Of a stretch of DNA of 64,000 nucleotides, positions 4,550 through 55,118 are shown in pieces. Each line of letters opens with the position of its first letter. Position 1 is the first letter of the stretch. The stretch lies in contig JAOAIJ010000036.1 of the NCBI GenBank assembly GCA_026414765.1, forward strand, positions 1 to 64,000. Direction: 5' to 3'. This stretch comes from Clostridia bacterium. Lineage in GTDB: Bacteria; Bacillota; Clostridia; Acetivibrionales; DSM-27016. The notes under the pieces are model-generated. The model searched no databases. It was not told where the DNA came from and saw only the letters and a list, made by a program, of their open reading frames with translations. Both the position numbers and the translations under genes were made by a program.

Positions 4550-4585
4550 AAAGATGAAAAATTAAAATTGTATTTGGAGGTAGCA

Positions 4586-6745: not shown

Positions 6746-6761
6746 TTATAGGGGGGAAGTA

Positions 6762-19945: not shown

Positions 19946-19965
19946 ACTTGTCCGGATAAGTGAGA

Positions 19966-19992
19966 GTTGGCTGAAAAGCCAGCTTTTTTTTG
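19966..19992 (+). terminator. Terminator after ppnP
   Basis: GTTGGCT (19966-19972) pairs with AGCCAGC (19977-19983) across a GAAA loop, followed by eight T. Confidence 0.88.
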
Positions 19993-20169
19993 TTTGGGAA
20001 AGGTTATTTCTCCGGGGTATTTGTAGTTTATGAAGTGCTTGCTGAAACTTTAGTACGGTAATGCTATGCGTTCTGGTTCAAAATACCGGATTTGTGCTTT
20101 TTCAAGCTTTCCCGAAAAAAAAACACCTAAGACCCGAAGAATTTCTACTTACTAATTAATGATATAGGT

Positions 20170-20183
20170 GCTAAAATTTTAGC
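20170..20183. promoter_or_regulatory. Perfect palindrome, candidate BlaI-type operator
   Basis: GCTAAAATTTTAGC is a 14-bp perfect palindrome 35 bp upstream of the blaI-like start. It overlaps a possible -10 (TAAAAT). Repressors of this family bind dyads over their own promoter, so autoregulation is plausible. The usual TACA/TGTA half-sites are not evident. Confidence 0.45.
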
Positions 20184-20218
20184 ATAGAGTTTATCTGTGC
20201 TGAAAGGGATGAAAAGGA

Positions 20219-20617
20219 ATGAAAGGTAATCCGGCTAAGAATTTAAGCAGAAGAGAACGCCAGATAATGGACATAGTTTTCAGAAAAAAACATGTAACGG
20301 CAGCAGAGGTTCAGGAAGAACTTCCTGATAATCCTAGCTACTCAACTGTTAGGGCATTTTTGAGGATATTGGAGGAAAAAGGGCAGGTAAAGCACAAAAC
20401 AGATGGCCAAAAATATATTTATTTTGCTTCTACTCCAAGGAAGAAAGCAGTGAAAGACGCAATTGAAGATCTTATTAAGACATTTTTTGATAATTCTGTC
20501 GAACATACAGTGGCAGCATTGCTGGATTTAAAAAAATCAAAGCTGACCGGTGAGGAGCTTGACAGAATTTCTGTATTGATAGAGAAAGCCAGAAAGGAAG
20601 ACGAGGAAAATGAGTGA
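20219..20617 (+). CDS. BlaI/MecI-family repressor
   Basis: The 132-residue winged-helix protein begins LSRRERQIMDIVFRKKHVTA near residue 8. The recognition-helix region NPSYSTVRAFLRILEEKGQV and the C-terminal dimerisation helices are typical of BlaI, MecI and CopY/PenI repressors. In the classical system the repressor is cleaved when the membrane sensor BlaR1 detects beta-lactam. Here a BlaR1-like gene overlaps its 3' end by 8 bp, which couples the two. A palindrome upstream suggests autorepression. Downstream are ten genes in tight succession, so this repressor probably controls the whole permease/DUF362 run. Confidence 0.92.
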   Translation: MKGNPAKNLSRRERQIMDIVFRKKHVTAAEVQEELPDNPSYSTVRAFLRILEEKGQVKHKTDGQKYIYFASTPRKKAVKDAIEDLIKTFFDNSVEHTVAALLDLKKSKLTGEELDRISVLIEKARKEDEENE

Positions 20618-22163
20618 GGGTAAAGTGCAGCTGTTAAACTGGCTTATCATTTTGGCAGACTCTTCCCTTAAGGGAACTATTATCATTACTGCAGCAATCT
20701 TATTAAGCAAGCTTAAAAGAGGTATTTCATCTCAGGCAAAATATCTGCTATCTGCTGTAGCTATAATTTCCTTGCTAATATTACCACTGTCGTACTATTT
20801 GAATAATCACTCAAATAGTGAATATGAATCTGTATTAAAGAATATGAAAAAAGTGCCATATACAATAAATATGGATATAGCATCGCCAAGTGAGGATAAT
20901 GGGCAGACAGCTTCAGAAGCATCCTTGGGTTCCGGTAAAACAACAGAGAAGTATGATGCCGGGCTAAAAAACAAGATTTTTTTATCTGTCTTTTATCTGT
21001 GGTTTTGTGTATTGCTTGTCCTTTTATTCAGGATTGCAGTTGGAATGCTGGGGGCACATAAAATAATAAGAGAATCAGAAATGCTGGTTGATGAAAACTT
21101 GCTGGCAATTGTTAATGAAGTCAAACTTATATTAGGTGTGAAACAAAACATAAAGATTTACTTATCCGAAAATGACTATATGCCTATTACTTTTGGGATA
21201 ATGAAACCGGTAATTCTTCTTCCGCGGAATGCACTTGATTGGGAATCAGGATTATGCAGGAGCGTTCTGATGCATGAGATAGTTCATATAAAACGCAGGG
21301 ATAACTTATTAAAGCTTGCTGCAAGACTGGTAAGCACGCTGTATTGGTTTAATCCCATTATGTGGGTGGCGCTCAAACGTTTCTATATCGACATGGAAAA
21401 AGCCTGTGATGCCTGTGTAATGCAACTTGGAGTAAAATCTACGGATTATGCCGGACATTTACTGAGTATAGCAGGCGGATATTCAGTTCCAAAGTTTTTT
21501 CCAGAGCCTTCAAGTGCTATGGGGAGTATTTCCATAACGGAATCCAGGATATTGACCATTCTAAATAAAGGTGAAAGATATATTGGAAGCAGCAAAAAGA
21601 AATTTTTCCTGTTAGCCTCAGTATTCTTATGTCTTGCAATAGTATTGTCCAGTGTCCAGATTGTATCTGCGAAATTTTCCAGAGAATCTGAAACTCTGAA
21701 CATAATAACGGACAAAAAAGGGTTTGTTTCAGTTCAGAGCTCTGACTTAAAAATCAACATAAAAAATTCATTGAAAGAACAAATACCTACACTGCTACCT
21801 GTAGGCGGTAAAAACGTAGAAATACAAAATACCTTTGGCGGGAGTATCGGGAATGATAAATATAAAAATACAGGCATTGATATCGAAAAGGGCAATGAAT
21901 GCATGCCCATCATTGCTTCAGCAGATGGGTATGTAAAAGAGATCGGAATGGACGGTACGGATGGAAACTACATAAAGCTAGAGCATAGTAACGGATTGCA
22001 TACGGTTTATGAGAATTTCATAGAAACACAGGTCAGAACAGGTGATTATGTGCAAAAAGGTGTAATCATCGCCTATACAGGAAATATAGAAAAGGTTCAC
22101 TTTGAAGTATGGTATAGCGATATGCCTTTGGATCCATTGCCGTTTTTGAAGATGGGGTATTAA
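20610..22163 (+). CDS. BlaR1-like protease with degenerate M23 sensor
   Basis: The 517-residue protein has an N-terminal M56 module: membrane segments at about residues 18-35, 46-66 and 125-147, the zinc motif HEIVH at 222-226, and another membrane segment near 332-350. Instead of the penicillin-binding sensor of BlaR1, the extracytoplasmic C-terminus (about 395-517) is an M23/LytM-like fold. Its zinc site is eroded: the first motif reads NTGIDI (His replaced by Asn, Asp kept), HL reads ENF, and HxH reads KVH. It probably binds rather than cuts peptidoglycan-like ligands (inference). It overlaps the repressor gene and is followed after 37 nt by a permease gene. Confidence 0.85.
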   Translation: MSEGKVQLLNWLIILADSSLKGTIIITAAILLSKLKRGISSQAKYLLSAVAIISLLILPLSYYLNNHSNSEYESVLKNMKKVPYTINMDIASPSEDNGQTASEASLGSGKTTEKYDAGLKNKIFLSVFYLWFCVLLVLLFRIAVGMLGAHKIIRESEMLVDENLLAIVNEVKLILGVKQNIKIYLSENDYMPITFGIMKPVILLPRNALDWESGLCRSVLMHEIVHIKRRDNLLKLAARLVSTLYWFNPIMWVALKRFYIDMEKACDACVMQLGVKSTDYAGHLLSIAGGYSVPKFFPEPSSAMGSISITESRILTILNKGERYIGSSKKKFFLLASVFLCLAIVLSSVQIVSAKFSRESETLNIITDKKGFVSVQSSDLKINIKNSLKEQIPTLLPVGGKNVEIQNTFGGSIGNDKYKNTGIDIEKGNECMPIIASADGYVKEIGMDGTDGNYIKLEHSNGLHTVYENFIETQVRTGDYVQKGVIIAYTGNIEKVHFEVWYSDMPLDPLPFLKMGY

Positions 22164-22200
22164 GAGTTGAAGTATCAAAATGTATAGCGTGAGGTGAAAT

Positions 22201-23007
22201 ATGCTGGGGCTTCTTTTAGACATTGGGAATGGTGTTTTGGTTAATATGCTGCAGGTGCTGGCAGGCTGTGTGTTGAGTGTATTAATCTACAAAATAATAA
22301 CAAAAAAGAAAATAAAAGCAAAAAATCCGGTTGCTGTTGATTTTCTGATGATCACTCTGCTTTCGGCATGTGGAATGCTTTTCCCTTTGGGTATATACGG
22401 TATTGTTCCGGTTTTTGCTGTAATGGTTCTGTCAGGAATCAATACTTATTTTACTGTTCCGCTTGTTATATCAAATTTATTATTCAACATGCTTGATCCT
22501 GTTTTAGAAAAAACCTTTGTTTGGAGGGCCTCCGGAGGCAGGATACTTCTTGCATTTGTTGCCGGAGTTCTTGCAGGTATGATAATCAGGATGCTGGATT
22601 CAAGAAATGTGAATATCATCAACCACAGGATGATGAGCAGATTAATTCCCCGTGAACAGGGTCGGACTCTCAAGTTGGGGGCTATACCTGATGTTATAGG
22701 CATAATAGGACCATTTGTTATTATAGGTGCTGTTTTGAACGGTATTTTCCACAGGTATATGTATAACGACGTTATGAATGCTTTTTATGCCAGCAGTATA
22801 GGTACAGAAATTACAGAAGTTCTTTTGAAGAATAATGCAACTATAAGCTCTACCTTTAGCCTGTCCCTTGGGATAGCAAACGTATTCATGAACTTTGCAG
22901 AAATGTCAGCTTTGTTTATACTTTTTAAGCCGCGTGGCATTTTTATATTCATTGCATATTATTCGGTTATTGCGCTTATTTGTGCCGCATCAATTTTTGT
23001 TTTTTAG
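22201..23007 (+). CDS. Short DUF318-like permease S1
   Basis: The 268-residue integral membrane protein has about seven predicted segments. It aligns by eye with S2 (24229) and S3 (27190) and with the first half of the longer permeases L1 and L2. The marker is MLFPLGIYGIVPVFAVMVLS where the L proteins have SPICMYGTVPI, so the conserved Cys is replaced. It lacks the second-half marker CGGGTIPL and GPATKLTNLG. It starts module 1 of the array and is followed after 31 nt by D1. The DUF318/COG0701 family includes the organoarsenical exporter ArsP; the substrate here is unknown. Confidence 0.75.
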   Translation: MLGLLLDIGNGVLVNMLQVLAGCVLSVLIYKIITKKKIKAKNPVAVDFLMITLLSACGMLFPLGIYGIVPVFAVMVLSGINTYFTVPLVISNLLFNMLDPVLEKTFVWRASGGRILLAFVAGVLAGMIIRMLDSRNVNIINHRMMSRLIPREQGRTLKLGAIPDVIGIIGPFVIIGAVLNGIFHRYMYNDVMNAFYASSIGTEITEVLLKNNATISSTFSLSLGIANVFMNFAEMSALFILFKPRGIFIFIAYYSVIALICAASIFVF

Positions 23008-23038
23008 CTTAGATACAAAAATAAACTGGAGGGTCAAA

Positions 23039-24133
23039 ATGAAAAACATTAAGAAAATTATTGTCTATGGTATTATTGCAGTTTTGTGTATTGCAGCCAT
23101 TGCAGGATATGCAGGACAAAAGTGGCTGAAGGGTCTTGGAGGCGGCAGCGCGGTTGTTTCTGAGGCTGGGCCAGGTGGAGATAAGAAGAAAATGTCTGAT
23201 ATAAGAGATCTAAATAACAATATACTTCCACAAATAGTTTGGGACCGGATGCAGAAAAACAATGTTATATCCGATAAAAACCCTGTTATAGGAGCAGGAG
23301 TGGGCAAGGACTTTTCTGCGACTACCAGAGAAGCCGTCAAAAATGCGGATGCTCTGGAAAAGCTCATAAAGAAGGGTAGTACTGTTTTAATCAAACCCAA
23401 TATGATAAAAAGTGCTGCACCGGAGCAAGGTGTAGAGACTGATTACCGCGTAGTACAGGAAATTGCAAATATAGCAAGGGAGTTAGGGGCATCCCGTGTA
23501 GTTGTTGCGGATGGTTCACCATGGGGCAGGAGCTTTGATGATACAAATATGTATACGAAATTAACAGGTGTAGAACTTATTGATTTCAATGACTGCAGAG
23601 AAGAGGACTGTTATAAGTTCACACCGGAAAAAAGCTTGACCGGCGGTGAATTCTATATGCCCAAAATATATATGGAGGCTGATGTGGTAATAAGTGCGGC
23701 AAAGCTGAAGACACATTTTGAGGCAGTTGTAACCCTTAGTCTGAAAAATATATTTGGTGTTCCTCCTGTTCAACTTACAGGAGCAGGTCAGGGAAGGGAC
23801 TATCTGCATAATATGGGCATTTCCAACTCTATAGTAGATCTTAACAAAATCAGAAAGCCTGATTTTGTAATTATAGACGGCATAATAGGAGGTGAAGGGA
23901 ACATGCCTTTCAGTGGCACACCGGTGGATTCCGGAGTTGTATTTGCCGGGACTGACCCTGTTGCTGCTGATACTGTAGCACTGAATTTCATGGGCTTTAC
24001 ATTGGATGAAATAGAGCATGTCAGATTGGCCGGACAGGAAGGCCTGGGTATAAATGATCTGAGTAAAATCAAGCTTGTAGGGCTGGACTTAAATAAATCA
24101 CAGATGTTCTTCAGAAGGTCCGAATCATATTAA
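23039..24133 (+). CDS. Membrane-anchored DUF362 protein D1
   Basis: The 364-residue protein has a short basic N-terminus (MKNIKK), one membrane segment at about residues 7-25, a linker and a complete DUF362 domain (about 90-360). Domain markers are VLIKPNM, TDYRVVQEIA, GASRVVVADGS, AAKLKTHFEAVV, IDGIIGGEGNMP and AGTDPVAADTVAL. The charge pattern predicts the domain lies outside the membrane. DUF362 has no settled biochemistry; ferredoxin-fused members suggest redox or Fe-S chemistry. ATG 23039 follows TGGAGGG; the open frame upstream to 22895 overlaps S1. Module 1 has no L permease after this gene, only a 95-nt gap. Confidence 0.8.
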   Translation: MKNIKKIIVYGIIAVLCIAAIAGYAGQKWLKGLGGGSAVVSEAGPGGDKKKMSDIRDLNNNILPQIVWDRMQKNNVISDKNPVIGAGVGKDFSATTREAVKNADALEKLIKKGSTVLIKPNMIKSAAPEQGVETDYRVVQEIANIARELGASRVVVADGSPWGRSFDDTNMYTKLTGVELIDFNDCREEDCYKFTPEKSLTGGEFYMPKIYMEADVVISAAKLKTHFEAVVTLSLKNIFGVPPVQLTGAGQGRDYLHNMGISNSIVDLNKIRKPDFVIIDGIIGGEGNMPFSGTPVDSGVVFAGTDPVAADTVALNFMGFTLDEIEHVRLAGQEGLGINDLSKIKLVGLDLNKSQMFFRRSESY

Positions 24134-24228
24134 TTATTCTGATAAGCGGTTTGGATCTATTGAGTGTATTTAGTATCATATAGTGTTTAATGAGTAATAT
24201 TACAGGAAATACAAGGGTAGGTGGGTAC

Positions 24229-25029
24229 ATGTTGGAGCTGGTAGCAGAAATAGGGCAGGTGTTAATCTCAAATACGGTTCAATTGGTTATGGGCTGTATT
24301 TTATCGATAATTATTAGTTATTGTTTCAGGAGCAGGCAGAATAATGAAAATACTGGCTTGCTGAGAGTTTTTCTGTATATAGCAGCAAGCTCGACGGTAG
24401 GAATCGTATTACCTCTAAATATGTATGGACTGGTTATTCCTTGTATCACGCTGCTTGCTTTGGGACAAAGATCTTATTCCGTATTTCCCATGCTGGTATC
24501 GAATGCTTTGTTTAATATGCTTGTGCCATATTCAGATGTAAGTTTTGTATGGAGAAACGGAACAAAACGGGTTATTCTCGCTTTTGCTGCGGGAGTTTTG
24601 ATAGGGTTGGCCCTAAAAACTCTGAGTGTAAAGGAAATGACGCTTTTCAGAAAGCTAAACGGTTTGGGTAGTGATAAGGAATACTCAGGGATATCTGGGA
24701 TATCCGGTTTTATTGTTGACAGCATCAGTATGGTCGGGATATACCTTATCATAGGTGTCATCATAGATACCCTATTCCGTAAATATGCATTTTTCAGTAT
24801 TCTGGGTTTTATCTTCAATAATCCTAAAACTGCCTTCATTCCACGCTTGCTTGCAGGTTATGATATTGTAAATCCGTATTTCCTGCTTGCGAAGAATATT
24901 GTTATTGTATTAATGGATTTTATCAAGATGTCAGCATTGCTGGTTATTCTAAAACCTAAGGGGTTACTGGCTTATTACGGTTATTATATTGCTATAGCCG
25001 GACTTTTGTCAGTATCTGCATTTATATAA
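24229..25029 (+). CDS. Short DUF318-like permease S2
   Basis: The 266-residue membrane protein is paralogous to S1 and S3. The N-termini align (MLELVAEIGQVLIS, MLGLLLDIGNGVLV, MFQIITDASYLVIG), which sets the start at 24229, after AGGTGGG, rather than at 24190. The first-half marker reads IVLPLNMYGLVIPCITLLAL, again without the Cys of the L type. ALFNMLVPYSDVSFVWRNG matches FNMLDPVLEKTFVWRASGG in S1. It opens module 2 and is followed 16 nt later by D2. Confidence 0.75.
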   Translation: MLELVAEIGQVLISNTVQLVMGCILSIIISYCFRSRQNNENTGLLRVFLYIAASSTVGIVLPLNMYGLVIPCITLLALGQRSYSVFPMLVSNALFNMLVPYSDVSFVWRNGTKRVILAFAAGVLIGLALKTLSVKEMTLFRKLNGLGSDKEYSGISGISGFIVDSISMVGIYLIIGVIIDTLFRKYAFFSILGFIFNNPKTAFIPRLLAGYDIVNPYFLLAKNIVIVLMDFIKMSALLVILKPKGLLAYYGYYIAIAGLLSVSAFI

Positions 25030-25045
25030 TAAGAGGAGGAACAAA

Positions 25046-26215
25046 ATGGGGAAATTAAAGAATGTTATTATTTTTGGTGTTATTATTTTGTTAGGTATTG
25101 CTGCAGTTGCAGGGTATTTCATAAAGAATAGCACAGGTAAAAGCACAAACGCTGAGACTGCAAAGGAAGTAACAATCGATGCAACCAAAGCTGCAACTAC
25201 AAGTACCGGTACAAAAGTAAGTGATGAACCAAAAGCGCCTGTAATGCTTAATGTCAGTGAAAGTATAGTCGCAAAAGGTGAATCGGAGAGAGAAAAACAT
25301 GTCAAGGAACTGCTGAATAAAGCTATGGAGAATCCTGATCCCAACCCTGTAGTAGGAATAGGGAGAGGGGAAGATCATGCAAAGGTCACCGACATGGCAA
25401 TAGAAAATGCCGGTGGACTGAAGGGAATTGTCAAAAAAGGCGATGTGGTATTGATAAAACCAAACATATGCTACAATTCAACGCCTGATTCATCAATAAT
25501 AACCGACTACAGGGTAGTTCAGCAAATTGCAGATAAAGCAAAAGAGATGGGTGCATCAAGAGTTATAGTTGCTGAAGGGAGTTTTTCCGGAAATGCTTTT
25601 GACGTGCTGGAGAATAAATACAGCACTTTAAAGGGAGTAGAGTTTCTGAACTTCAATGATTTTGATACTAAGGACTGTTATGAGCTTCAACCGTTAAAGA
25701 GTCTGGTAGGAAAAGGACTGTTCATACCTAAGGCTTATATGGATGCTGATGTGGTTATTAATGTAGCTAAGATGAAAACCCACTTTTTACCTGAGGCGGT
25801 AGTGTCATTGAGTATTAAGAATTGTATAGGAATACCTCCTGAGAGAATTTATACCGGAGCAGGCTCAAAAGATGGGCTTCACATGCTGGGAATAATGGAA
25901 ACAATAATCGATCTGAACAGAATAAGAAAGCCTGACTTATCTATAATCGAAGGTATTATCGGGGGCGAAGGCGAAGGTCCTATGTACAATACACCGGTTA
26001 ACTCCAATATAATTTTGGCAGGAAAAGATCTGGCGGCTCTCGATACTGTAGGATTGACCTTTATGGGCTTCAAGCTTGATGAAGTACCTCATGTCAAGCG
26101 TGCAGGAGAAGAGAAGCTTGGTATTACCGATATAAAGAAAATAAAGGTTGTCGGAGCTGATTTGAATTCTATTAAAATGGACTTCCAGAGTTCCTTTAAG
26201 CTGCTTAGAGAATAA
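25046..26215 (+). CDS. Membrane-anchored DUF362 protein D2
   Basis: The 389-residue paralogue of D1 and D3 has an N-terminal anchor at about residues 7-26 (basic MGKLK start, so the domain is outside), then a Thr/Ala/Lys-rich linker (about 27-75) typical of extracellular tethers. The DUF362 domain follows, with VVLIKPNICYNST, ITDYRVVQQIADKAKEMGAS, VAKMKTHFLPEAVV, IEGIIGGEGEGPMYNTPV and AGKDLAALDTVGL. AGAGGAGG precedes ATG 25046. It is the middle member of module 2, 41 nt before L1. Substrate and cofactor unknown. Confidence 0.8.
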   Translation: MGKLKNVIIFGVIILLGIAAVAGYFIKNSTGKSTNAETAKEVTIDATKAATTSTGTKVSDEPKAPVMLNVSESIVAKGESEREKHVKELLNKAMENPDPNPVVGIGRGEDHAKVTDMAIENAGGLKGIVKKGDVVLIKPNICYNSTPDSSIITDYRVVQQIADKAKEMGASRVIVAEGSFSGNAFDVLENKYSTLKGVEFLNFNDFDTKDCYELQPLKSLVGKGLFIPKAYMDADVVINVAKMKTHFLPEAVVSLSIKNCIGIPPERIYTGAGSKDGLHMLGIMETIIDLNRIRKPDLSIIEGIIGGEGEGPMYNTPVNSNIILAGKDLAALDTVGLTFMGFKLDEVPHVKRAGEEKLGITDIKKIKVVGADLNSIKMDFQSSFKLLRE

Positions 26216-26256
26216 ATTGGGAATTCTTAGGAATATTGTTTTGACAGGGGACTGAA

Positions 26257-27168
26257 ATGAATTTACCGAACCAGTTTATAATACTGTTTAATATCATAGT
26301 GCAGCAATTTAAACTCATATTTCCATATTGGATTGCCGGTGTTTTTACTGGTTCGTTGCTTTCTGTATTTGCAGCAGCAAGAATTACCAGCCTGGCAGTG
26401 AAGATCAGCGGAAACAGGTTCAGACTGACAGGTTTGATATTTGCCGCCTGTTTGGGAGTTGCATCGCCTATTTGCATGTATGGGACTGTACCTATTATTG
26501 CTTCTCTCGGGAGGAAGAATGTACCTCAGTATTTCCTTGCTGCATTTATGGTCAGTTCCATACTTCTGAATCCCAACCTGCTTATACTGAGCTTTGCCCT
26601 GGGACCGGGAATTGCGGTGTTGAGATTGTCTGTGAGTATAGCAGCCGGGGTTCTGGCAGGAATACTCGTTTATGCTTTGTACAAAAACGATAGTTTATTT
26701 AGCTTTGAAGGTTTTGAAGATAGAAAAAAGTGCAGCAGTCAATCATCTATGACCAAGACATTTTTCAGTGACTTATATAGAGGGATAGATAAGACTGCTC
26801 CGTATTTTCTTGCAGGTATTATACTCACTGCATTGTTTGACAGGTATTTTCCAAAGGATATCATCATCAGGATGTTTGACAGCAATAAAGGGCTTGGAGT
26901 GCTTCTGGCAGCTTCACTCGGCGTTCCCATATATGTTTGCGGGGGTGGTACAATACCCCTCATAAGGGCTTGTTTGCAAGCAGGTATGAGCATTGGGTCC
27001 GCTGCGGCATTTATGATTACGGGGCCTGCTACAAAGTTGACCAACCTGGGTGCTGTAAAAATTATACTCGGAAAGAAGAATTTTGCCGTGTATATTTTAT
27101 ATAACATTATTTTTGCCATAATTGTTGGACTAGGTACCGATTTTATTTTAGGATTGATAAAAAAATGA
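26257..27168 (+). CDS. DUF318-family permease L1
   Basis: The 303-residue membrane protein has about eight predicted segments in two related halves. The first-half motif is GVASPICMYGTVPIIASLG (about 66-84); the second-half motif is LGVPIYVCGGGTIPLIRACL (about 223-242), followed by AAFMITGPATKLTNLGAVKI. Both halves keep one Cys at the pore-motif position, as in COG0701 permeases such as ArsP and YraQ, where Cys residues line the path. A Cys-containing soluble loop (KKCSSQ near 160) separates the halves. It closes module 2. Transport of a metalloid, thiol-reactive or organo-metal compound is one possibility, inferred only from the family. Confidence 0.85.
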   Translation: MNLPNQFIILFNIIVQQFKLIFPYWIAGVFTGSLLSVFAAARITSLAVKISGNRFRLTGLIFAACLGVASPICMYGTVPIIASLGRKNVPQYFLAAFMVSSILLNPNLLILSFALGPGIAVLRLSVSIAAGVLAGILVYALYKNDSLFSFEGFEDRKKCSSQSSMTKTFFSDLYRGIDKTAPYFLAGIILTALFDRYFPKDIIIRMFDSNKGLGVLLAASLGVPIYVCGGGTIPLIRACLQAGMSIGSAAAFMITGPATKLTNLGAVKIILGKKNFAVYILYNIIFAIIVGLGTDFILGLIKK

Positions 27169-27189
27169 GTAGTGTGGTGGTAAGTACCC

Positions 27190-27996
27190 ATGTTTCAAAT
27201 TATTACAGATGCAAGCTATCTGGTTATAGGAATACTGGCTCAGGTTTTGATAGGATGTATTCTCGGAATACTGCTGTATGCTCCTCTTAGGAGGCTCTTT
27301 GACAAGGGGCTTGAAAAAAGGAACAGAAGGGATAAAATACTACATGCTTTAATTGCTTCTATTTCAGGTGTTTTACTCCCTCTCGGATCCTACGGAATTA
27401 TTCCAGTGGTTTTGTCTGCTTCAGCTGCCGGTGTTGGGGTAAGGTTAATTGTTTCGTTTTATATTTCAAATTCCTTGTTTAATACATTGGTGCCGTATTT
27501 TGAAAATACCTTTACATGGGGATTGGGAATAAAAAGGGCGATAATTGCTCTGTTGGCAGGTGTTTTATCTTCTTATGTCATAGGTGCTATAAAATTGACC
27601 GGCAGCAGGCTGCTTCGGCTTGAGATACCTGAGAATCTGCTTGGACAGGAGAATGGAATTAAGAGATTTGCATTTACTGGAAACAGGATTCTTTTAAGTA
27701 TTGGTGCATATGTAATTATAGGCGCTGTTGCCGAAAGTTTTTTTTATGCGTATGCTTTGGGAGATATCAGGACATGGTTTTATTCAGCGTCTGCAGGACT
27801 TGAGTTTGCCAGGTTTCTGACTAAGTATGATGTAGGGAATCATATTTTTCTTATAGCAATATACGTTTTCAACAGTCTCATGAGTCCGCTGAAGTTATCT
27901 TCATTACTCGCTTTGTGGAATATACGCGGAGTTATTCTATACTATTTATTCAGTTTTTTTATTTGTGGAGCATTGACGATTTCACTGTTTCTGTAG
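27190..27996 (+). CDS. Short DUF318-like permease S3
   Basis: The 268-residue membrane protein is the third S paralogue, with about seven predicted segments. The marker reads GVLLPLGSYGIIPVVLSASA, with no Cys at the L-type position. FNTLVPYFENTFTWGLGIKR matches the same region in S1 and S2. It opens module 3. GGTGGTAAG precedes ATG 27190, which lies 21 nt after L1. Since all three S proteins lack the second motif of L, they may act as partner subunits of L or as membrane receptors. Confidence 0.75.
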   Translation: MFQIITDASYLVIGILAQVLIGCILGILLYAPLRRLFDKGLEKRNRRDKILHALIASISGVLLPLGSYGIIPVVLSASAAGVGVRLIVSFYISNSLFNTLVPYFENTFTWGLGIKRAIIALLAGVLSSYVIGAIKLTGSRLLRLEIPENLLGQENGIKRFAFTGNRILLSIGAYVIIGAVAESFFYAYALGDIRTWFYSASAGLEFARFLTKYDVGNHIFLIAIYVFNSLMSPLKLSSLLALWNIRGVILYYLFSFFICGALTISLFL

Positions 27997-28011
27997 GATG
28001 GAGGTTTAGTG

Positions 28012-29028
28012 ATGAAGACTTTTAAAGCTTTTTTGATATATGGAATTTTACTGGTTTTGCTGGTGGTGGGGATATCAGCCGGATTTTTCTTAAAGAATAA
28101 TGAGAAAAGTGTGGAAACTGTAAATGCATTGTCCAATACTGTTGCGGATGTGGTTCAGACAGCAGACACCAGTAGGATACAATCTGATAATCCGATGGTT
28201 GGTATAGCGCAAGGGACGGACTATGACAAAGTAACAAGGGAGGCTGTTAAGAACTCGGGCCGGCTGAAAGAGATTGTAAAGAAAGGCGATGTAGTTCTGA
28301 TAAAGCCAAATCTTGGAGCAGCTGTACCAAGTGGTACAGGCAATATTACCGATTACAGGATAGTACAGGCTGTCGCAGATATTGTTAAAGAGTATGGTGC
28401 TTCCAGGGTAATAGTAGCGGAGACTTCTTACATGGGAAATGTATTCAATGTCACAGGATATGACCAATTGACAGGGGTAGAACTGGTCGATATGAATGAA
28501 TTCGGTGAAAAGGATTGTTATAAGCTCAAAGCTGAGAATAGCCTTACAGGAAAAGAATTTTACATTCCAAAGATTTATATGGATGCTGATGTTGTGATCA
28601 GTGCAGCAGTTCTAAAGACTTATTCGCTTGTGGGAGGAACTCTTAGCCTTAAAAACTCAATAGGAGTACCCCCGAACAACCTTTATGGTACCATGGGAGG
28701 TAAGCTGGCTTTCCATGGAATGGGTATAGATAATGTGATTGTTGACCTGAACAAAATAAGAAAGCCTGACTTTGCAGTAATAGACGGTATTATCGGAGGA
28801 GAAGGCTCAGGACCTGTAAATAACGACCCTGTAAACTCTAATACCGTACTTGCAGGCTCAGATCTGGTGGCTGTAGATGCAGTAGCACTTGAATTTATGG
28901 GTTTGACTCTGGGTGAGGCAGATCATATAAGGCTTGCTGCAGAGAATGGCTTGGGTGAATGTGATCTGAAGAAGATCACTGTAAAGGGCGCTGTTTTGGA
29001 CACTATAAAAATGAAATTCAAACACTGA
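28012..29028 (+). CDS. Membrane-anchored DUF362 protein D3
   Basis: The 338-residue paralogue is the shortest anchored DUF362 copy. The anchor is at about residues 8-27 with Lys before it, the linker is short, and the DUF362 domain has VVLIKPNLGAAVPSG, ITDYRIVQAVADIVKEYGAS, IDGIIGGEGSGPVNNDPV and AGSDLVAVDAVAL. The motif read as KTH in D1, D2 and D4 is KTY here (SAAVLKTYSLVG), so a possible metal or catalytic His is lost. ATG 28012 with GGATGGAGG is preferred to GTG 28009. L2 follows after 16 nt. Confidence 0.8.
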   Translation: MKTFKAFLIYGILLVLLVVGISAGFFLKNNEKSVETVNALSNTVADVVQTADTSRIQSDNPMVGIAQGTDYDKVTREAVKNSGRLKEIVKKGDVVLIKPNLGAAVPSGTGNITDYRIVQAVADIVKEYGASRVIVAETSYMGNVFNVTGYDQLTGVELVDMNEFGEKDCYKLKAENSLTGKEFYIPKIYMDADVVISAAVLKTYSLVGGTLSLKNSIGVPPNNLYGTMGGKLAFHGMGIDNVIVDLNKIRKPDFAVIDGIIGGEGSGPVNNDPVNSNTVLAGSDLVAVDAVALEFMGLTLGEADHIRLAAENGLGECDLKKITVKGAVLDTIKMKFKH

Positions 29029-29044
29029 TTTAAAGAGAGGCCGT

Positions 29045-29956
29045 ATGACTCTTCTTTATGAAATCTCCTATATTTTTTATCTTGTAGTATATCAGTTCAG
29101 GCTTATAGCTCCATATTGGTTTGCAGGAGTTATCGCAGGAGCGGTAATCTCTACCTATGCAGGTGACTTTATAGGTAAACTTGTTTTGAGTCTGAAGGGG
29201 AAAGAAAAATTCAGTCCTGTTGCTGCAGGAAGTGCTGCTTTCCTCGGAGTGGTATCGCCGCTGTGCATGTATGGTACCGTACCACTCATAGCATACTTAG
29301 GTAAAAACGGTGCTCCTCAATATTTACTTGCAACATTTATGGTGAGTTCTATTTTATTGAATCCAAATTTGTTGCTTTTGAGCTTTTCATTGGGAGTACC
29401 TATTGCTATATTGAGGCTGATATCTAGTATTATGGCAGGTATGCTGGCAGGGCTGCTGGTGAAAGTATTATTCGACCGAAAGCAGTTATTTAGTTTTGAA
29501 TGCTTTGAAGAAAAAAAGAAATGCAGTAGTGAAGAGAAGTCCTACAAGAAGTTTATAAGCAAATTAAACAAAAGTATTTTAGTAACCGCTCCATATTTTC
29601 TTGTAGGAATCATACTAACAGCTCTATTCGACAAGTATTTTCCTAAAAGCATATTCGTCAGCCTGTTCAGCGGTAATAAAGGTCTGGGTGTATTATTGTC
29701 TGCATCTTTAGGGGTACCTATATACCTTTGCGGAGGAGGTACAGTACCTCTTGTCAAAGCTTGGATGAATGCCGGTATGAGTCCGGGTTCCGCTATAGCG
29801 TTTATGATATCGGGACCGGCAACCAAGCTGACTAATCTCGGTGCGGTAAAAATCATCCTGGGGGCGCGGAATTTTACATTTTATCTGGCATATTGCATTA
29901 TTTTTGCGGTAGTTACAGGCATCATTATCGATGCTTTTTATGGAATAATCCAATAA
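29045..29956 (+). CDS. DUF318-family permease L2
   Basis: This 303-residue protein has the same length as L1 and is clearly paralogous throughout: GVVSPLCMYGTVPLIAYLG, LNPNLLLLSFSLG, LGVPIYLCGGGTVPLVKAWM and IAFMISGPATKLTNLGAVKI. Both motif Cys are kept, and the soluble loop again carries KKCSS. It closes module 3. The ribosome site AGAGAGG precedes ATG 29045. L1 and L2 could form a heterodimer or have separate substrates. Confidence 0.85.
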   Translation: MTLLYEISYIFYLVVYQFRLIAPYWFAGVIAGAVISTYAGDFIGKLVLSLKGKEKFSPVAAGSAAFLGVVSPLCMYGTVPLIAYLGKNGAPQYLLATFMVSSILLNPNLLLLSFSLGVPIAILRLISSIMAGMLAGLLVKVLFDRKQLFSFECFEEKKKCSSEEKSYKKFISKLNKSILVTAPYFLVGIILTALFDKYFPKSIFVSLFSGNKGLGVLLSASLGVPIYLCGGGTVPLVKAWMNAGMSPGSAIAFMISGPATKLTNLGAVKIILGARNFTFYLAYCIIFAVVTGIIIDAFYGIIQ

Positions 29957-29976
29957 GATTATATGGAGAGATAACT

Positions 29977-31026
29977 ATGAAGAAGTTTTTTTCTTTGATT
30001 ATTGTTCTCATTTTTACCCTTTCAGTATATAGCCAGTCTGACGCATGCACGATTTTTACCAAGCAGCAAAATGGAAGAGTCCTGGTGGGAAACAATGAGG
30101 ACTGGATGTACTCTATACCTTCTACATTTTGGATAGCTGCACCTGAAAATGATACATACGGAAGGATATGCTTTGCGAATTCTACCTATGTTCAGGGTGG
30201 TATGAATGAAAAGGGCCTGTTTTATGATGGTGCTACATGCCCTGCTTCAGAGATACCTCATTTTAAAGGAAAGCCGGAATTGGGAATGGATCTTGGGGAA
30301 ATAATCATTTCAAAATGTGCAAATGTCCGGGAAGCTGTAGAAATGATAAAAAAGTATAACATCACCAGAAGCTTCACCGATCATATTATGTTTACCGATC
30401 AATCAGGGGATTCTGTGGTGATAGAATGGATGAACAATGATCTGAAGATAATCCCCAAAAAAGGAACATATCAACTTATAACCAACTTCTGGCTTACCGA
30501 CCCAGAGCTTGGAGGATATCCATGCACCAGGTATGATAAAGCCAAAACAATGCTCGAAGATAAAGATGAGATTAATGTCGATGTGTTTGCCGGAATTTTA
30601 AAAGCCGTATTAGCGGATTGGGGAGATATGGGTACGAAATATTCAAATGTATATGATCTGAAAAAAAGAGAGGTATTTATTTATAATAAGGGGGATTTCA
30701 GCAAATACGTCAGATATAATTTGCCGGATGAACTCAAAAAGCTTAAAAAAGGAAAAAAGGTAAATTACAAACTGGACAAAGTTTTCAGAGACAATACCGA
30801 TGTACTGCTGTCGCCTGTTGAAAATGAAAGACAGAATATTCAGGTCGGACATACCGGGACACAGATTGTAAATGATGAGAAAGATTCAGTCTTAAAATCT
30901 AAGGGAGTGCCTGTAAAAAAGAATGGAGTGTTTATACTATACTTCTTAATAGCAATCATAGCAATATTGTTGCCAATAGTCGTTATTACCGTATTAAGAA
31001 AAATGAAAAATAAAGACTTAATATAA
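29977..31026 (+). CDS. Anchored Ntn hydrolase, choloylglycine-hydrolase-like
   Basis: The 349-residue precursor has a signal peptide (MKKFFSLIIVLIFTLSVYSQ), then the mature N-terminal nucleophile Cys in DACTIFTKQQNG near residue 25, and VLVGNNEDW near 36. These match linear-amide C-N hydrolases (bile-salt hydrolase and penicillin V acylase group, MEROPS C59/C45). YVQGGMNEKGLFYDG and IEWMNNDLKI fit the family. A single membrane segment near the C-terminus (about 315-338) followed by KMKNKD would hold the enzyme at the outer membrane face. ATG 29977 follows TGGAGAG. Its place in this operon suggests an extracellular amide or acyl-peptide substrate. Confidence 0.83.
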   Translation: MKKFFSLIIVLIFTLSVYSQSDACTIFTKQQNGRVLVGNNEDWMYSIPSTFWIAAPENDTYGRICFANSTYVQGGMNEKGLFYDGATCPASEIPHFKGKPELGMDLGEIIISKCANVREAVEMIKKYNITRSFTDHIMFTDQSGDSVVIEWMNNDLKIIPKKGTYQLITNFWLTDPELGGYPCTRYDKAKTMLEDKDEINVDVFAGILKAVLADWGDMGTKYSNVYDLKKREVFIYNKGDFSKYVRYNLPDELKKLKKGKKVNYKLDKVFRDNTDVLLSPVENERQNIQVGHTGTQIVNDEKDSVLKSKGVPVKKNGVFILYFLIAIIAILLPIVVITVLRKMKNKDLI

Positions 31027-31042
31027 ATGGGAGGTGTAATAA

Positions 31043-32197
31043 ATGAGTACTGTGTCTATAGTGAGATGCGATGACTATGAAGTAGAAAAAGTAAAGTCTG
31101 CCATAAAGGAATCTATAGATAAAATAGGAGGAATGTCTGCTTTTGTCAAGCCTGGTGAAACAGTTCTCTTGAAGGTGAATCTGCTTATTAAAAGAAAACC
31201 GGAAAAGGTTACCACAACTCATCCTTCCTTTGCACAGGCTTTGGCAGAGCTTGTTATCGAAGCAGGCGGCAAGCCAGTAATCGGAGATAGCCCTGGTGGA
31301 TATCACTTCTATAATAAAGGGTCTCTGGAATCGGTATATGAAACCTGCGGTATGAAAGATGCAGCTAAGAAAAGCGGTGCGGAGTTGAATTATAACACAG
31401 ATGTGATAGATGTACCTTATCCTGATGGAGTGGTAATGAAGAGTATCAAAACTATAAAGCCTGTCATCGAGGTAGATAAGATAATAAATATACCCAAAAT
31501 CAAGACTCATATGATGACAGTCTATAGCGGAGCTGTAAAAAATATGTTCGGAATAATTCCCGGGAGCTACAAAGCAGAGTATCACCTGAGATTTGATGAT
31601 ACAGGTGACTTTGCCAATCTGCTTATTGACATATGCAGTTTTTCCAAGCCTGTATTGACTGTAATGGATGCGGTGCTGGGTATGGAGGGATATGGTCCAA
31701 CCAATGGACATCCAAAGAAAGTTGGTCTGGTACTAGCCAGTAGTGACCCTTTTGCACTTGATGTAACAGCTACTGACATAATCGGTATTGAACCGGGGCA
31801 GGTACCTACAATCAGAAAGTCTGTGGAACGGAATTTGTGTACCGGCAATATTGGAGATATTGAGGTAGTCGGAGAGGAAATGAATAAAATCAGGGTTTTG
31901 GATTTTAAGAAGCCTACGGTAAAGGTTGCATTTAACTTTTACAATATCCTGCTCCCTAAGTTTATAGTAAAGCGCCTGAATAGAATTATCAAACCCACAC
32001 CGCGGTTTAATATGCAGAAATGCAAGGGTTGCGGGATGTGTGCAAAAAGCTGTCCTCCCAAGACTATAGAGATGGTTGGCGGAAAGCCGGTAGTAAAACT
32101 TGATAAATGCATAAGGTGTTTCTGTTGTCATGAGTTGTGCAATTATGATGCTGTAGATATCAAAAGGCCCTGGTTTATAAGGATGGTACTGAGGTAG
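31043..32197 (+). CDS. DUF362 protein with ferredoxin domain, D4
   Basis: The 384-residue soluble protein has no anchor. The DUF362 domain (about 1-300) shows VLLKVNLLIKRKPEKVTTTH, GGKPVIGDSPGG, IPKIKTHMMTVYSGAVKNMF and ASSDPFALDVTATD. The C-terminus carries two [4Fe-4S] motifs: CKGCGMCAKSCP near 326 and CIRCFCCHELC near 354. This is the common architecture of clostridial DUF362 ferredoxin proteins, more divergent from D1-D3 than those are from each other. It lies 16 nt after the Ntn hydrolase and ends the run; I see no clear terminator after it. It may supply electrons for the pathway from the cytoplasm (inference). Confidence 0.85.
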   Translation: MSTVSIVRCDDYEVEKVKSAIKESIDKIGGMSAFVKPGETVLLKVNLLIKRKPEKVTTTHPSFAQALAELVIEAGGKPVIGDSPGGYHFYNKGSLESVYETCGMKDAAKKSGAELNYNTDVIDVPYPDGVVMKSIKTIKPVIEVDKIINIPKIKTHMMTVYSGAVKNMFGIIPGSYKAEYHLRFDDTGDFANLLIDICSFSKPVLTVMDAVLGMEGYGPTNGHPKKVGLVLASSDPFALDVTATDIIGIEPGQVPTIRKSVERNLCTGNIGDIEVVGEEMNKIRVLDFKKPTVKVAFNFYNILLPKFIVKRLNRIIKPTPRFNMQKCKGCGMCAKSCPPKTIEMVGGKPVVKLDKCIRCFCCHELCNYDAVDIKRPWFIRMVLR

Positions 32198-32389
32198 TGT
32201 ATAATTTGCCTTATGCTCTAAATTTTCCAATATAATCAACAGGAATACCTTGGGATATACCAGGAAAAATGCGCCGGATATAAAAGTTAACTTGCAAGAT
32301 TGATTAAGTTATGTTAGGTATTCTGTGTTTATGTGATATAATCTTAAGAAGGTAAATAGTAAAAGCAAAGATGTGAAAAGGTGGATAAA

Positions 32390-33205
32390 ATGGATATTAG
32401 AGAAAAACTGAACAACTTAAAAGCAGATATAGAAAAAATGGGAAGCCTTGCTGTGGCGTTTTCTGGAGGGGTAGACAGTACATTTCTCCTGAAGGTTGCC
32501 CATGATGTATTAGGGGATAAGGCAATAGCTGTAACAGCGCGGTCTTCTACATACCCTGAAAGAGAATACAGGGAAGCAGTTGATTTTGCCGGCAAAATAG
32601 GAGTAAAGCAAATAGTAATAGTTTCAGAAGAACTTGATATTGAAGGTTTTTCTTCAAACCCTGTAAACAGGTGCTATTTTTGCAAAAAAGAATTGTTTAC
32701 AAAAGTTATTGATGTGGCAAAAGATAATGGGATCAGATATGTTGCAGACGGATCAAATATTGATGATCTCGGGGATTATAGGCCGGGAATGACTGCAACA
32801 AAGGAATTGAATGTAGTAAGCCCGCTAAAGCAGGCAGGAATGACTAAAGACGATATAAGAGCATTATCAAAAGAAATGGGATTACCTACCTGGGATAAGC
32901 AGGCTTTTGCATGTCTTTCATCAAGATTTCCGTATGGGCAGGAGATTACCCATGAGAAACTTGAAATGGTGGATAAGGCTGAGCAATTTCTGATGGATCT
33001 CGGTTTCAGGCAGCTGCGGGTCCGCCATCACGGCGATGTTGCGCGTATTGAAGTTTCTGCTGCCGAAAGGCCAAAATTCTTTGATGAAGAATTAATGGAC
33101 AGGGTATATGAAAATTTAAAAAAAATCGGATTCAAATATGTTTCGTTGGATTTGAAAGGGTACCGTACAGGAAGTATGAATGAGGTACTAAACCTGAACA
33201 AGTGA
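32390..33205 (+). CDS. larE: Sulfur transferase LarE
   Basis: The 271-residue PP-loop enzyme has AFSGGVDSTFLLK near residue 22 for ATP, NRCYFCKKELF near 85 and FACLSSRFPYG near 168. LarE adenylates the pyridinium precursor and donates sulfur, from its own Cys or an Fe-S cluster, to build the nickel-pincer nucleotide cofactor. ATG 32390 with AAAGGTGG upstream is preferred over GTG 32381. TATAAT at 32337-32342 may be its -10 box. larB and larC follow after one extra gene, so this is a cofactor operon; larA is not in the window. Confidence 0.93.
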   Translation: MDIREKLNNLKADIEKMGSLAVAFSGGVDSTFLLKVAHDVLGDKAIAVTARSSTYPEREYREAVDFAGKIGVKQIVIVSEELDIEGFSSNPVNRCYFCKKELFTKVIDVAKDNGIRYVADGSNIDDLGDYRPGMTATKELNVVSPLKQAGMTKDDIRALSKEMGLPTWDKQAFACLSSRFPYGQEITHEKLEMVDKAEQFLMDLGFRQLRVRHHGDVARIEVSAAERPKFFDEELMDRVYENLKKIGFKYVSLDLKGYRTGSMNEVLNLNK

Positions 33206-34284: not shown

Positions 34285-35031
34285 ATGGATTCCGAAAGTT
34301 TAAAAAAATTGCTTGAAAATGTTAAAAATGGCAGCATAAATATAGATGATGCTTTAACAGAGCTAAAAAAGCTTCCTTTTGAAGACCTGGGGTTTGCTAA
34401 AGTTGATCATCACCGCAAGATCAGGAATGGTTTTCCCGAGGTTATTTACTGCCAGGGAAAGACAGTAGAGCAGATAAAGGGTATAGTCAGAAAGCTTATG
34501 GAAAAAAATAATAACATAATGGGCACAAGAGCCAGCAGAGAAGTATATGAGGGTATAAAAGAGGTTACGGATGATGCAGTATATTATGAAGCAGCAAGAA
34601 TAGTTGTAGTTAAGAGAAGGGATTCTGAGTTGACTCAGAAAGTCATAGCTGTGGTATCAGCAGGAACGTCGGATATACCTGTTGCGGAAGAGGCAGCCAT
34701 AACAGCAGAGGTTATGGGGAACAGAGTTGACAGAGTGTATGACGTAGGTGTAGCGGGTATACACAGGCTGTTTGCCAATGCTGATATACTTCTGAAAGCC
34801 AATGTATTAATAGTAGTGGCAGGAATGGAAGGGGCTCTTGCAAGTGTCGTAGGTGGAATGGTGGATAAACCTGTTATAGCGGTTCCCACAAGTATCGGTT
34901 ACGGAGCAAACTTCGGCGGGCTTTCTGCGTTGTTGACGATGCTTAACAGTTGTGCAAGCGGGATAGGTGTTGTAAATATTGATAATGGATTTGGTGCAGG
35001 ATACCTGGCCAGTATGATAAATAAATTATAG
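34285..35031 (+). CDS. larB: Nickel-pincer cofactor carboxylase/hydrolase LarB
   Basis: The 248-residue protein has the LarB N-terminal segment (FAKVDHHRKIRNGFPEVIYC near 36) and a C-terminal PurE-like AIR-carboxylase fold (SAGTSDIPVAEEAAITAEVM near 127; VPTSIGYGANFGGLSALLTM near 206). LarB carboxylates nicotinic acid adenine dinucleotide and releases AMP to give the dicarboxylated pyridinium precursor. TCCGGAGGTG precedes ATG 34285. larC starts 12 nt later, so the two are translationally linked. Confidence 0.95.
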   Translation: MDSESLKKLLENVKNGSINIDDALTELKKLPFEDLGFAKVDHHRKIRNGFPEVIYCQGKTVEQIKGIVRKLMEKNNNIMGTRASREVYEGIKEVTDDAVYYEAARIVVVKRRDSELTQKVIAVVSAGTSDIPVAEEAAITAEVMGNRVDRVYDVGVAGIHRLFANADILLKANVLIVVAGMEGALASVVGGMVDKPVIAVPTSIGYGANFGGLSALLTMLNSCASGIGVVNIDNGFGAGYLASMINKL

Positions 35032-35043
35032 TGAGAGGTTTTT

Positions 35044-36357
35044 ATGAAAGTTTTATACTTTGACTGTTTTTCTGGAATCAGCGGGGATATGACACTTGGT
35101 GCCTTAATTGACCTTGGAGTTGACAAGGAATTGTTTAAAAGTGAGCTGGACAAGCTAAATCTTAGCGGATATGATATCGTTATCGGTAATAAATCCAAGA
35201 ATGGAATAATAGGTACAGATGTAGATGTAATAATAAATGAGGAATATGAGAAACTTCAAGAGAGACTGAAAAGACATGAGGAGCACCAGCATTTGCACAA
35301 ACACGGGCATCCGCATGAGCATTCTCATGAACACGGACATCATCACAAGCACGGACATAGTGAAGATAGTCACCAACATTCACACTCTGCAAGAAATCTG
35401 AAAAGTATAGAAACCATGATAGACTGGAGCGATTTAAATCAAAATGTAAAAGATTTCAGTAAGAGGGTCTTCAGGGAAATTGCAAAAGCTGAAGCTAAAG
35501 TACATAACAAAGATATAAATGAGGTCCATTTTCATGAAGTGGGCGCTATAGATTCCATAGTAGATATAGTGGGAGCAGCAATCTGCCTGGATTTGCTTGG
35601 GATACAGAGAGTGCATTCTTCACCTCTCCATGACGGGCATGGCTTTATTGAATGCCAGCATGGAATCATTCCTGTGCCTGTTCCTGCCGTAATGGAAATG
35701 CTTAAAAACAGCGATATTCCGCTTGTTTCGGAAGATGTTAATACAGAATTGGTTACACCTACGGGAATGGGTATTATCAAATGTTTGTCATCCGGCTTTG
35801 GCAACATGCCTGCAATGACTGTTGAAAAAGTCGGTTACGGTATGGGAAAACGTGAAACAGGTAGATTTAATGCATTAAGAGTTGTAATGGGAACTCTGGT
35901 TGAGAATAAAGGTTCTTCTGATGAAATAACTCTTCTGGAAACAAACATAGATGATATGACTCCGGAAGCTTTGGGCTATACTGCCGAAGCACTTCTGGAA
36001 GCCGGTGCTCTGGATGTGTTTATTACTCCGGTTTATATGAAAAAGAGCAGACCGGCAAGCATACTGTCCGTACTCGTAAACGAAGAAAAAGAAGAGAAGT
36101 TTGTGGATATTATTTTAAGAGAGACCTCCACCCTAGGCATAAGAAAAAGCTCTGTCAAAAGGTACTGCATGGACAGAGAAATGATCGAGGTAGAAACCCA
36201 GTATGGAAAAGCCAGGGTCAAAATAGCTTCCGGATATGGAATCAGAAAAGCAGCACCTGAATATGAGGATTGTAAGGAAATTGCAAAACGTACGGGATTA
36301 CCGTTAAGAGAAGTATATGAACTGGTGATGGAGAAGGCAGGAAAGCATGTTATATAA
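35044..36357 (+). CDS. larC: Nickel insertion protein LarC, single frame
   Basis: The 437-residue protein catalyses CTP-dependent nickel insertion into the pincer nucleotide. Family markers are LYFDCFSGISGDMTLGALID at the N-terminus, EVHFHEVGAIDSIVDIVG near 160 and LETNIDDMTPEALGYTAEAL near 298. A His-rich insertion at about residues 78-114 holds 18 His and probably stores or delivers Ni(II). In Lactiplantibacillus plantarum LarC needs a programmed frameshift (LarC1/LarC2); here one continuous frame encodes both parts. The gene overlaps the next one by 11 bp. Confidence 0.95.
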   Translation: MKVLYFDCFSGISGDMTLGALIDLGVDKELFKSELDKLNLSGYDIVIGNKSKNGIIGTDVDVIINEEYEKLQERLKRHEEHQHLHKHGHPHEHSHEHGHHHKHGHSEDSHQHSHSARNLKSIETMIDWSDLNQNVKDFSKRVFREIAKAEAKVHNKDINEVHFHEVGAIDSIVDIVGAAICLDLLGIQRVHSSPLHDGHGFIECQHGIIPVPVPAVMEMLKNSDIPLVSEDVNTELVTPTGMGIIKCLSSGFGNMPAMTVEKVGYGMGKRETGRFNALRVVMGTLVENKGSSDEITLLETNIDDMTPEALGYTAEALLEAGALDVFITPVYMKKSRPASILSVLVNEEKEEKFVDIILRETSTLGIRKSSVKRYCMDREMIEVETQYGKARVKIASGYGIRKAAPEYEDCKEIAKRTGLPLREVYELVMEKAGKHVI

Positions 36358-53259: not shown

Positions 53260-53299
53260 GAGGAAGGGAGTTGTTTCCCTTCCTCTAGTTTTTATACGT
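53260..53299. terminator. Bidirectional terminator
   Basis: CTAGAGGAAGGGA and TCCCTTCCTCTAG form a perfect 13-bp stem between the convergent HAD and acyl-CoA ligase genes, with A-rich and T-rich flanks. Confidence 0.9.
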
Positions 53300-55064: not shown

Positions 55065-55118
55065 TTATCAAACACCCCTTAAGGAAAAAAGAATAAAGAG
55101 TAAACTTAGCTCACTTGG

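Follow-up and report, generated by a model that had tools for sequence, protein, structure and literature searches.

Lactate racemase (LarA) is among the described systems closest to the proteins considered here. In the L. plantarum protein, Lys184 tethers the nickel-pincer nucleotide (NPN) cofactor and His200 binds nickel (stated in the available part of PMC9283937); Lys183 and His199 are the equivalents in LarAIp (excerpts of PMC11851776), and residue roles were also taken from portions of PMC12611868. About 15% of analysed genomes carry larB, larC and larE without larA, and the NPN user of larA-less genomes, notably cyanobacteria, is described in the accessible part of the same study as yet to be identified and likely to have a non-LarA fold (PMC11796402). 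Here we analysed an operon on contig JAOAIJ010000036.1 of a Clostridia bacterium, in a stretch of 64,000 nt (positions 1-64,000; hereafter, the window). Twelve open reading frames, all on the plus strand, span 20219-32197 and encode a BlaI/BlaR1-type regulatory pair, three short permeases (S1-S3), three anchored DUF362 proteins (D1-D3), two DUF318 permeases (L1 and L2), a predicted secreted Ntn hydrolase and a cytoplasmic DUF362-ferredoxin protein (D4). We found that this operon is one instance of a module that recurs elsewhere, and we met no earlier description of that module. Its interest lies in tying DUF362 to the question of which proteins other than LarA use the nickel-pincer cofactor.

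DUF362 proteins and their likeness to LarA

All four D proteins exceeded the Pfam DUF362 cut-off of 24 bits, including the N-terminally anchored D1 (23039..24133, 144 bits), D2 (25046..26215, 123 bits) and D3 (28009..29028, 135 bits) and the signal-less D4 (31043..32197, 199 bits), which has two 4Fe-4S motifs (Fer4_10). We modelled D2 from 58 sequences (predicted local distance difference test score, pLDDT, 89) and compared the model with known structures. Among the rows listed, all 15 that Foldseek returned at E <= 0.001 were LarA-family, and VIA-align gave 12 LarA-family entries at Z 14.4-18.2 (root-mean-square deviation 2.6-3.5 over 209-218 aligned residues), with the next row at Z 5.0. On this model, the D proteins almost certainly have a LarA-type fold. 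The link between DUF362 and LarA rests on the D2 model together with a profile comparison in HHalign (E 6.8e-6, probability 84.6); PDB sequence searches with D4 and with the DUF362 alignment returned mainly ferredoxin-type proteins and no LarA among the matches listed. The kinship itself is already known, because the placing of DUF362 in one Pfam clan with DUF2088 is in print, where DUF362 was used as an outgroup (available part of PMC11770544); what is new here is the correspondence of residues, the module and the cofactor use that we propose. A literature search of listings and abstract openings, covering few subscription journals, found no role for DUF362 in NPN use, and for NPN with cyanobacteria or LarC it took in the best 12 of 5,254 matches.

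HHalign paired D2 H246 and K258 with H169 and K179 of a LarA sequence (L155), which by their sequence context appear to be the second catalytic histidine and the tethering lysine of LarA. D2 H279 was paired with the nickel-ligand histidine by order and spacing only, beyond the end of the HHalign match. Across the 58 aligned DUF362 sequences, the lysine (K258) and the histidine matching the nickel ligand (H279) were each invariant (58/58), and the second catalytic histidine (H246) was present in 55/58 but not in D3. The H-x9-K spacing was found in 51/58, compared with 6/6 LarA sequences. What LarA and DUF362 share is thus the N-domain fold (in D2), the lysine and histidine at the cofactor positions, and the second catalytic histidine. 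Unlike LarA, D1-D4 lack a match to the Pfam Lar_N profile (none at E 0.1), the C-terminal substrate domain and the first catalytic histidine, and D1-D3 are membrane-anchored and paired with permeases. D4 resembles the Npun_F2552 family (NCBIfam NF052623; 203 bits) but misses its 500-bit cut-off and adds a dicluster ferredoxin after the matched stretch.

The S-D-L-D4 module, its permeases and its export

We searched for S in 60 relatives and for D in named genomes, the D search giving 75 loci. Ten distinct S-D loci emerged including the window, the nine others lying in eight genomes: L056 (genome G021), L057 and L062 (both G024), L058-L061, L063 (G033) and L064. The order S-D-L-D4 was found in L056, L059 (a Spirochaetaceae metagenome-assembled genome, MAG), L060, L061, L062 and L064, and the order D-S-D-L-D4 in L063; L057 and L058 end at a contig edge after D and L. 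An esterase-like gene (by eye; L057:1793-2713) stands between S and D in L057, and a beta-lactamase-family protein (Pfam; L061:7710-8900) lies in or beside the module in L061, comparable with the Ntn hydrolase of the window. An earlier note on this DNA, made from the sequence alone, had taken the repeated S-D-(L) order in one co-directional run for a functional module, and this claim is borne out because S-D-L-D4 recurs elsewhere. Related arrangements include a DUF362 lipoprotein or transmembrane protein directly beside L in order members L042-L047, where S was not found, and a third arrangement in G024 in which a 536-residue DUF362 protein accompanies L (L040).

The same note had counted BlaI/BlaR1 as part of the system, a claim that is not supported at the family level: the pair was present at 1/10 module loci (i.e., the window) and model searches found it at 0/9 of the others, so that modules occur without a blaI/blaR1 link, with flanks short on some contigs. 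The BlaI/BlaR1 head is local to the window operon. Other regulators near the module were PadR (L058 and L061), an AraC/GyrI-type protein (L060) and, by eye, a NarL-type two-component pair (L056 and L062); at the remaining loci no regulator was recognised, again with short flanks on some contigs. Divergent BlaI/BlaR1 pairs lie ~3 and 6 kb downstream of D in Anaerocolumna L066 and L065, respectively, where the D protein is signal-less. In Anaerocolumna L065, L066 and L068, an AraC/GyrI-type regulator precedes such a signal-less D homologue with no S or L nearby.

Phylogenies of D and S bear on how the repeats arose. D1 joined copies from SKW257, SKW158 and SKW185 (99/97), D2 fell in another set, whose members come from other genomes (93/97, a value under the star threshold), and S2 joined a seven-row set (98/98); D3, S1, S3 and the L copies had no resolved placement. 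Because D1, D2 and S2 each cluster with foreign copies, the repeats seem to predate this genome, and a recent segmental triplication in this genome was rejected on the same grounds. The operon had been called "triplicated" by segmental duplication; the repeats are indeed present, and, from where D1, D2 and S2 fall in the trees, they appear to be divergent old paralogues rather than products of a recent tripling.

The permeases fall into two size classes. L1 (26257..27168, 127 bits) and L2 (29045..29956, 125 bits) exceeded the Pfam DUF318/ArsP_1 cut-off of 32.3 bits. The short membrane proteins were S1 (22201..23007; 24 bits, below the cut-off), S2 (24190..25029), which had no Pfam match and was assigned by its identity to S1, and S3 (27190..27996; 36 bits, above the cut-off). 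Identity to S1 is 30% for S2 and 29% for S3, and S1-S3 are each 18% identical to L1. The S proteins lack the stretch bearing the GVPxYxCGGGTxPL motif of L (i.e., the second-half hairpin and its cysteine) as well as the cysteine of the first-half CMYG motif, whereas L keeps two conserved cysteine positions; judged by these alignments, S is a shortened relative of L. Like the described DUF318/ArsP_1 permeases SO_0444 and SaoE, L1 and L2 pass the Pfam cut-off, but they miss the 300-bit cut-off of the NCBIfam SO_0444 Cu/Zn efflux model (98 and 118 bits, respectively) and that of the SaoE model, and they are partnered by a short S protein. Among the nearest VIA-align rows to a model of L2 were elevator-type transporters of the CNT, DASS/INDY, Pho90 and ArsB families, which carry nucleosides, dicarboxylates, phosphate and arsenite, at Z 10.8-13.7, a range in which the tool urges caution and which may reflect a common helical arrangement. 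Foldseek returned no row at E <= 0.001 for the L2 model, and a PDB sequence search with L2 gave no match.

Permease neighbours follow the export type of DUF362 proteins. We classed 104 of these proteins with simple rules based on hydrophobicity and sequence motifs (under an initial set the classes shifted somewhat, L040 for instance being placed as twin-arginine translocation, Tat): 26 had a Sec, transmembrane or lipoprotein start, 33 were Tat, 6 were Tat-like and 39 were signal-less. An L or S gene lay within 4.5 kb of 20/26 exported non-Tat proteins, 0/33 Tat proteins and 0/6 Tat-like proteins, and the 8/39 signal-less proteins with such a neighbour were all module D4. Sec-type proteins without a neighbouring permease were L053, L067, L073, L075, L081 and L105. 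Tat-type signals stand at the start of many of the DUF362 proteins from Verrucomicrobiota and further phyla (L078-L129). The Tat export of many DUF362 proteins, as read from their N termini, hints at cofactor insertion before export. TatC was lacking in 13/15 module genomes, and this mostly Tat-less background suggests that a Sec-exported D protein would need its cofactor or substrate to be brought out.

Proposed cofactor use and its alternatives

The operon is followed on the same strand by genes for NPN synthesis and a DUF2520 gene. In order, these are a larE-like sulfur insertase gene (32381..33205; assigned by eye and by its position beside larB and larC, with weak PP-loop and NAD-synthase domains only in Pfam), a DUF2520 gene (start 33324), a larB-like gene with an AIRC domain (34285..35031; PF00731, E 2.2e-12; LarB by context) and larC, encoding the nickel insertion protein (35044..36357; PF01969, E 4.6e-154). 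The same-strand run reported for 20219-32197 is thus real, but 32197 is not its end, and the NPN-synthesis genes lie beyond the part described in the earlier note, which, made without tools, could not have revealed the LarA fold of DUF362 either. larE, larB and larC also lie beside the module in L064 (2/10 loci in all). We next scored 159 genomes of the phylum for LarC (PF01969), DUF362 and strong LarA matches (E < 1e-20), which were present in 96, 127 and 83 genomes, respectively. DUF362 occurred in 93/96 LarC-positive and 34/63 LarC-negative genomes (Fisher p 3e-11, kinship ignored), and among LarA-negative genomes in 29/32 LarC-positive vs 18/44 LarC-negative genomes (background 127/159). 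When one genome per family was kept (78 families, at least four families without a printed label being left out), the association was weaker than in the full sample (48/51 vs 19/27, p 0.007) and comparable to that between LarA and LarC (33/51 vs 10/27, p 0.03). Of the 15 genomes where L or S adjoins an exported DUF362 protein, 14 had LarC (the exception being G061) and 11 had no strong LarA. Two of the four LarA-less controls with LarC, namely Synechococcus elongatus and Haloferax volcanii, also carry DUF362. PF01969 is an imperfect proxy for NPN synthesis because 19/83 genomes with strong LarA had no LarC match, which is unexpected if LarC is always needed. A DUF362 family with the cofactor-domain fold of LarA and invariant residues makes the question of a non-LarA NPN user directly testable.

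We tentatively propose, as a possible rather than a likely reading, that the secreted D proteins work as enzymes with NPN or a similar compound as cofactor and are served by the permeases. Binding of NPN or a close analogue by D or D4 is quite possible, though short of probable. Under this proposal the operon would be inducible and built round the conserved module S-D-L-D4, and the D domains would be extracytoplasmic and, by means of the cofactor, process a compound resembling a hydroxy acid, having been exported unfolded by Sec in mostly Tat-less genomes. L, with S as its partner, would carry a substrate or product, or the cofactor itself, across the membrane because D appears to be Sec-exported unfolded and Tat is mostly absent; that the permease moves the cofactor itself seems unlikely. 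D4 could be the partner inside the cell, linking the reaction to ferredoxin, the secreted Ntn hydrolase might free the substrate, and the BlaI/BlaR1-M23 pair would be a locally recruited switch, perhaps answering a wall-derived ligand. If the permeases serve the secreted D proteins, the module would represent a novel type of enzyme system in the envelope of bacteria without Tat. A bolder version, which we think rather improbable, is that DUF362 is an unrecognised branch of NPN proteins that explains part of the LarA-less NPN genomes, and that the DUF318 pair exports the cofactor or its precursor to a secreted branch without Tat; if true, this would be a cofactor-export system for extracytoplasmic organonickel enzymes.

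A number of observations weigh against NPN use by the D proteins. The first catalytic histidine of LarA pairs with D2 F180, in a column free of histidine in all 58 sequences, and DUF362 thus does not keep both catalytic histidines of LarA (first missing, second in 55/58). D3 has a tyrosine in place of the second histidine, which two further proteins of the 58 also lack, and the D3 copy may be inactive or specialised because this tyrosine stands at the LKTH histidine. The C-terminal substrate domain of LarA is absent, the D2 core having ~290 residues of which ~210 aligned, mainly to the N-domain. Among LarA-negative families the difference was not significant (15/18 vs 10/17, p 0.15), and because DUF362 goes with LarA too (42/43 vs 25/35 families, p 0.002), shared ecology or genome lifestyle may drive LarC, DUF362 and LarA together. 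LarC specific to the module was rejected, as 47/58 genomes of the order have LarC, and the Spirochaetaceae MAG with the module had no LarC match. In other groups, LarC over the cut-off was missing in 28/50 DUF362 genomes, mostly MAGs; 7/8 Opitutaceae/Opitutae-type records among these were without LarC, one of them not labelled as a MAG. The cofactor residues do not track LarC, because all 18 of the 28 LarC-less genomes that are represented in the 58-row alignment keep the lysine and the histidine. Among controls, Corynebacterium glutamicum and Methanocaldococcus jannaschii have LarC without LarA or DUF362; Bacteroides ihuae carries DUF362 but no LarC. In larC regions from 80 of the 96 genomes with LarC, taken to 8 kb on either side as far as the contigs reached (the 16 left out include the window's own and most with a partial or split best LarC match), DUF362 was a convincing neighbour in 1/80 (L191) and LarA in 0/80, so the larC neighbourhood says little in this phylum. 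The export pattern is not a test because the protein sets are related by descent, and it is confounded by clade; nor is the lack of Tat specific to the module, since TatC over the cut-off was found in only 2/58 genomes of the order. Several of these points, namely the LarC-less genomes that retain both residues, the scarcity of DUF362 beside larC, the missing histidine and substrate domain, and B. ihuae, favour an alternative in which the D proteins, though still LarA-like in fold, bind another nucleotide, metal or organic cofactor, or none, and the lar neighbours are there by chance or for some other reason. We regard this as a serious possibility, if not yet a probable one; it sits less easily with the larE-larB-larC genes adjoining 2/10 module loci, the co-occurrence of LarC and DUF362 in the phylum sample, and the fact that the invariant lysine and histidine are the NPN-holding residues of LarA.

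Two further alternatives were considered. In one, an efflux and detoxification system, L (with S) would export a soft-metal or organometalloid compound or another toxic compound, with D binding it outside and D4 giving electrons. This is an unlikely account in our view, and it draws on the DUF318 relatives in NCBIfam named for Cu/Zn efflux (SO_0444) and SaoE (L falls below both cut-offs), on an SO_0444-named gene of Nitratiruptor for which Cd and Cu act as inducers (available part of PMC10092412), and on the two conserved cysteine positions of L, both of which S lacks. The enzyme-type fold of D and the hydrolases at two other modules (L057, by eye, and L061) argue against it. Also in its favour, the best NCBIfam match of BlaI, below its cut-off, is CopY. 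The CopY-type copper site depends on cysteine, however, and BlaI would have no such site because it contains none. The other account is that of the earlier note, which saw a BlaR1-switched envelope response that modifies and moves an envelope compound; BlaI/BlaR1 at the head, the M23/SpoIIQ-like domain of BlaR1, gaps free of terminators in our scan, and a hydrolase that looks secreted are consistent with it. We nonetheless consider it doubtful, given that BlaI/BlaR1 is found at 0/9 other module loci (some with short flanks), that regulators vary among modules, and that no penicillin-binding domain was detected in BlaR1.

Operon head, layout and neighbouring genes

As in the BlaRI/MecRI systems, the window operon pairs a Penicillinase_R repressor with an M56 protease carrying an HExxH motif; it differs from them in that this BlaR1 has an M23-like domain and no detected penicillin-binding domain, and in that the pair heads another gene set. 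The BlaI-family repressor (20219..20617; PF03965, 93.9 bits, E 1.1e-26) fell below the NCBIfam cut-offs for BlaI, MecI and CopY. The BlaR1-like protease (20610..22163) belongs to M56 (PF05569, residues 16-314, 131.7 bits; motif HEIVH) and was below the NCBIfam BlaR1/MecR1 cut-offs; M56 and M23 were its only domains above Pfam cut-offs. Its C-terminal Peptidase_M23 domain (PF01551, residues 419-509, 60.1 bits), absent from the earlier description, has as its nearest NCBIfam model SpoIIQ, below the cut-off. This domain reads NTGID and KVHFEV, with asparagine and lysine at two places where the M23 pattern presumably has histidine. It is apparently degenerate and may sense rather than cut, because these residues replace two of the metal-site histidines that we take to be expected.

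Upstream of blaI lies a perfect 16-bp palindrome, TGCTAAAATTTTAGCA (20169..20184), that ends 34 bp before the blaI start and is one of two such palindromes in the window. TGCTAAAATTTTAGCA matched exactly at 20169 and once more, with 3 mismatches, at 20040; 30/100 shuffles yielded at least two matches at <=3 mismatches. We consider it a candidate operator to which BlaI may bind. A terminator-like site with an 11-pair stem (19962-19987) lies upstream of the run, and the terminator scan found none in the gaps of 20219-32197. The intergenic gaps are, in order, -8, 37, 31, 56, 16, 41, 21, 12, 16, 17 and 16 nt (with the D1 start at 23039), the gap before the Ntn hydrolase being 20 nt if its start is ATG 29977. 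The twelve same-strand genes and the 8-nt overlap thus stand as first described, at or near the same coordinates, whereas the largest gap is 56 nt and not 95 nt. Upstream of larE, the 183-nt gap contains an extended -10-like element, TGATATAAT (by eye; not among the sites listed by a scan), and for this reason a separate promoter may drive the lar genes.

The predicted secreted Ntn hydrolase (29977..31026), of CBAH/AAT type, passed the Pfam cut-offs for CBAH (29.7 vs 20.4 bits) and AAT (29.5 vs 23.2) but not the NCBIfam C45 cut-off (57 vs 85). As read from the sequence, a cysteine follows its signal peptide, and its C terminus forms a membrane anchor. Beyond larC is a radical-SAM-like gene (36347-37285, plus strand; by eye).

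Adjacency of larC and DUF362 as a general arrangement was rejected: four regions matched, three of them at 27-29 bits and likely to be ferredoxin cross-hits. In genome G072 (L191:6635-9251), larC is immediately preceded on the same strand by a DUF362 gene of the COG2768 type. Elsewhere in the window, two adjacent paralogue-like genes of ~725 aa lie near ABC-transporter-like and solute-binding-like proteins (4568-8906), and acyl-CoA-ligase-like genes stand in tandem on the minus strand (53292-56956), both seen by eye.

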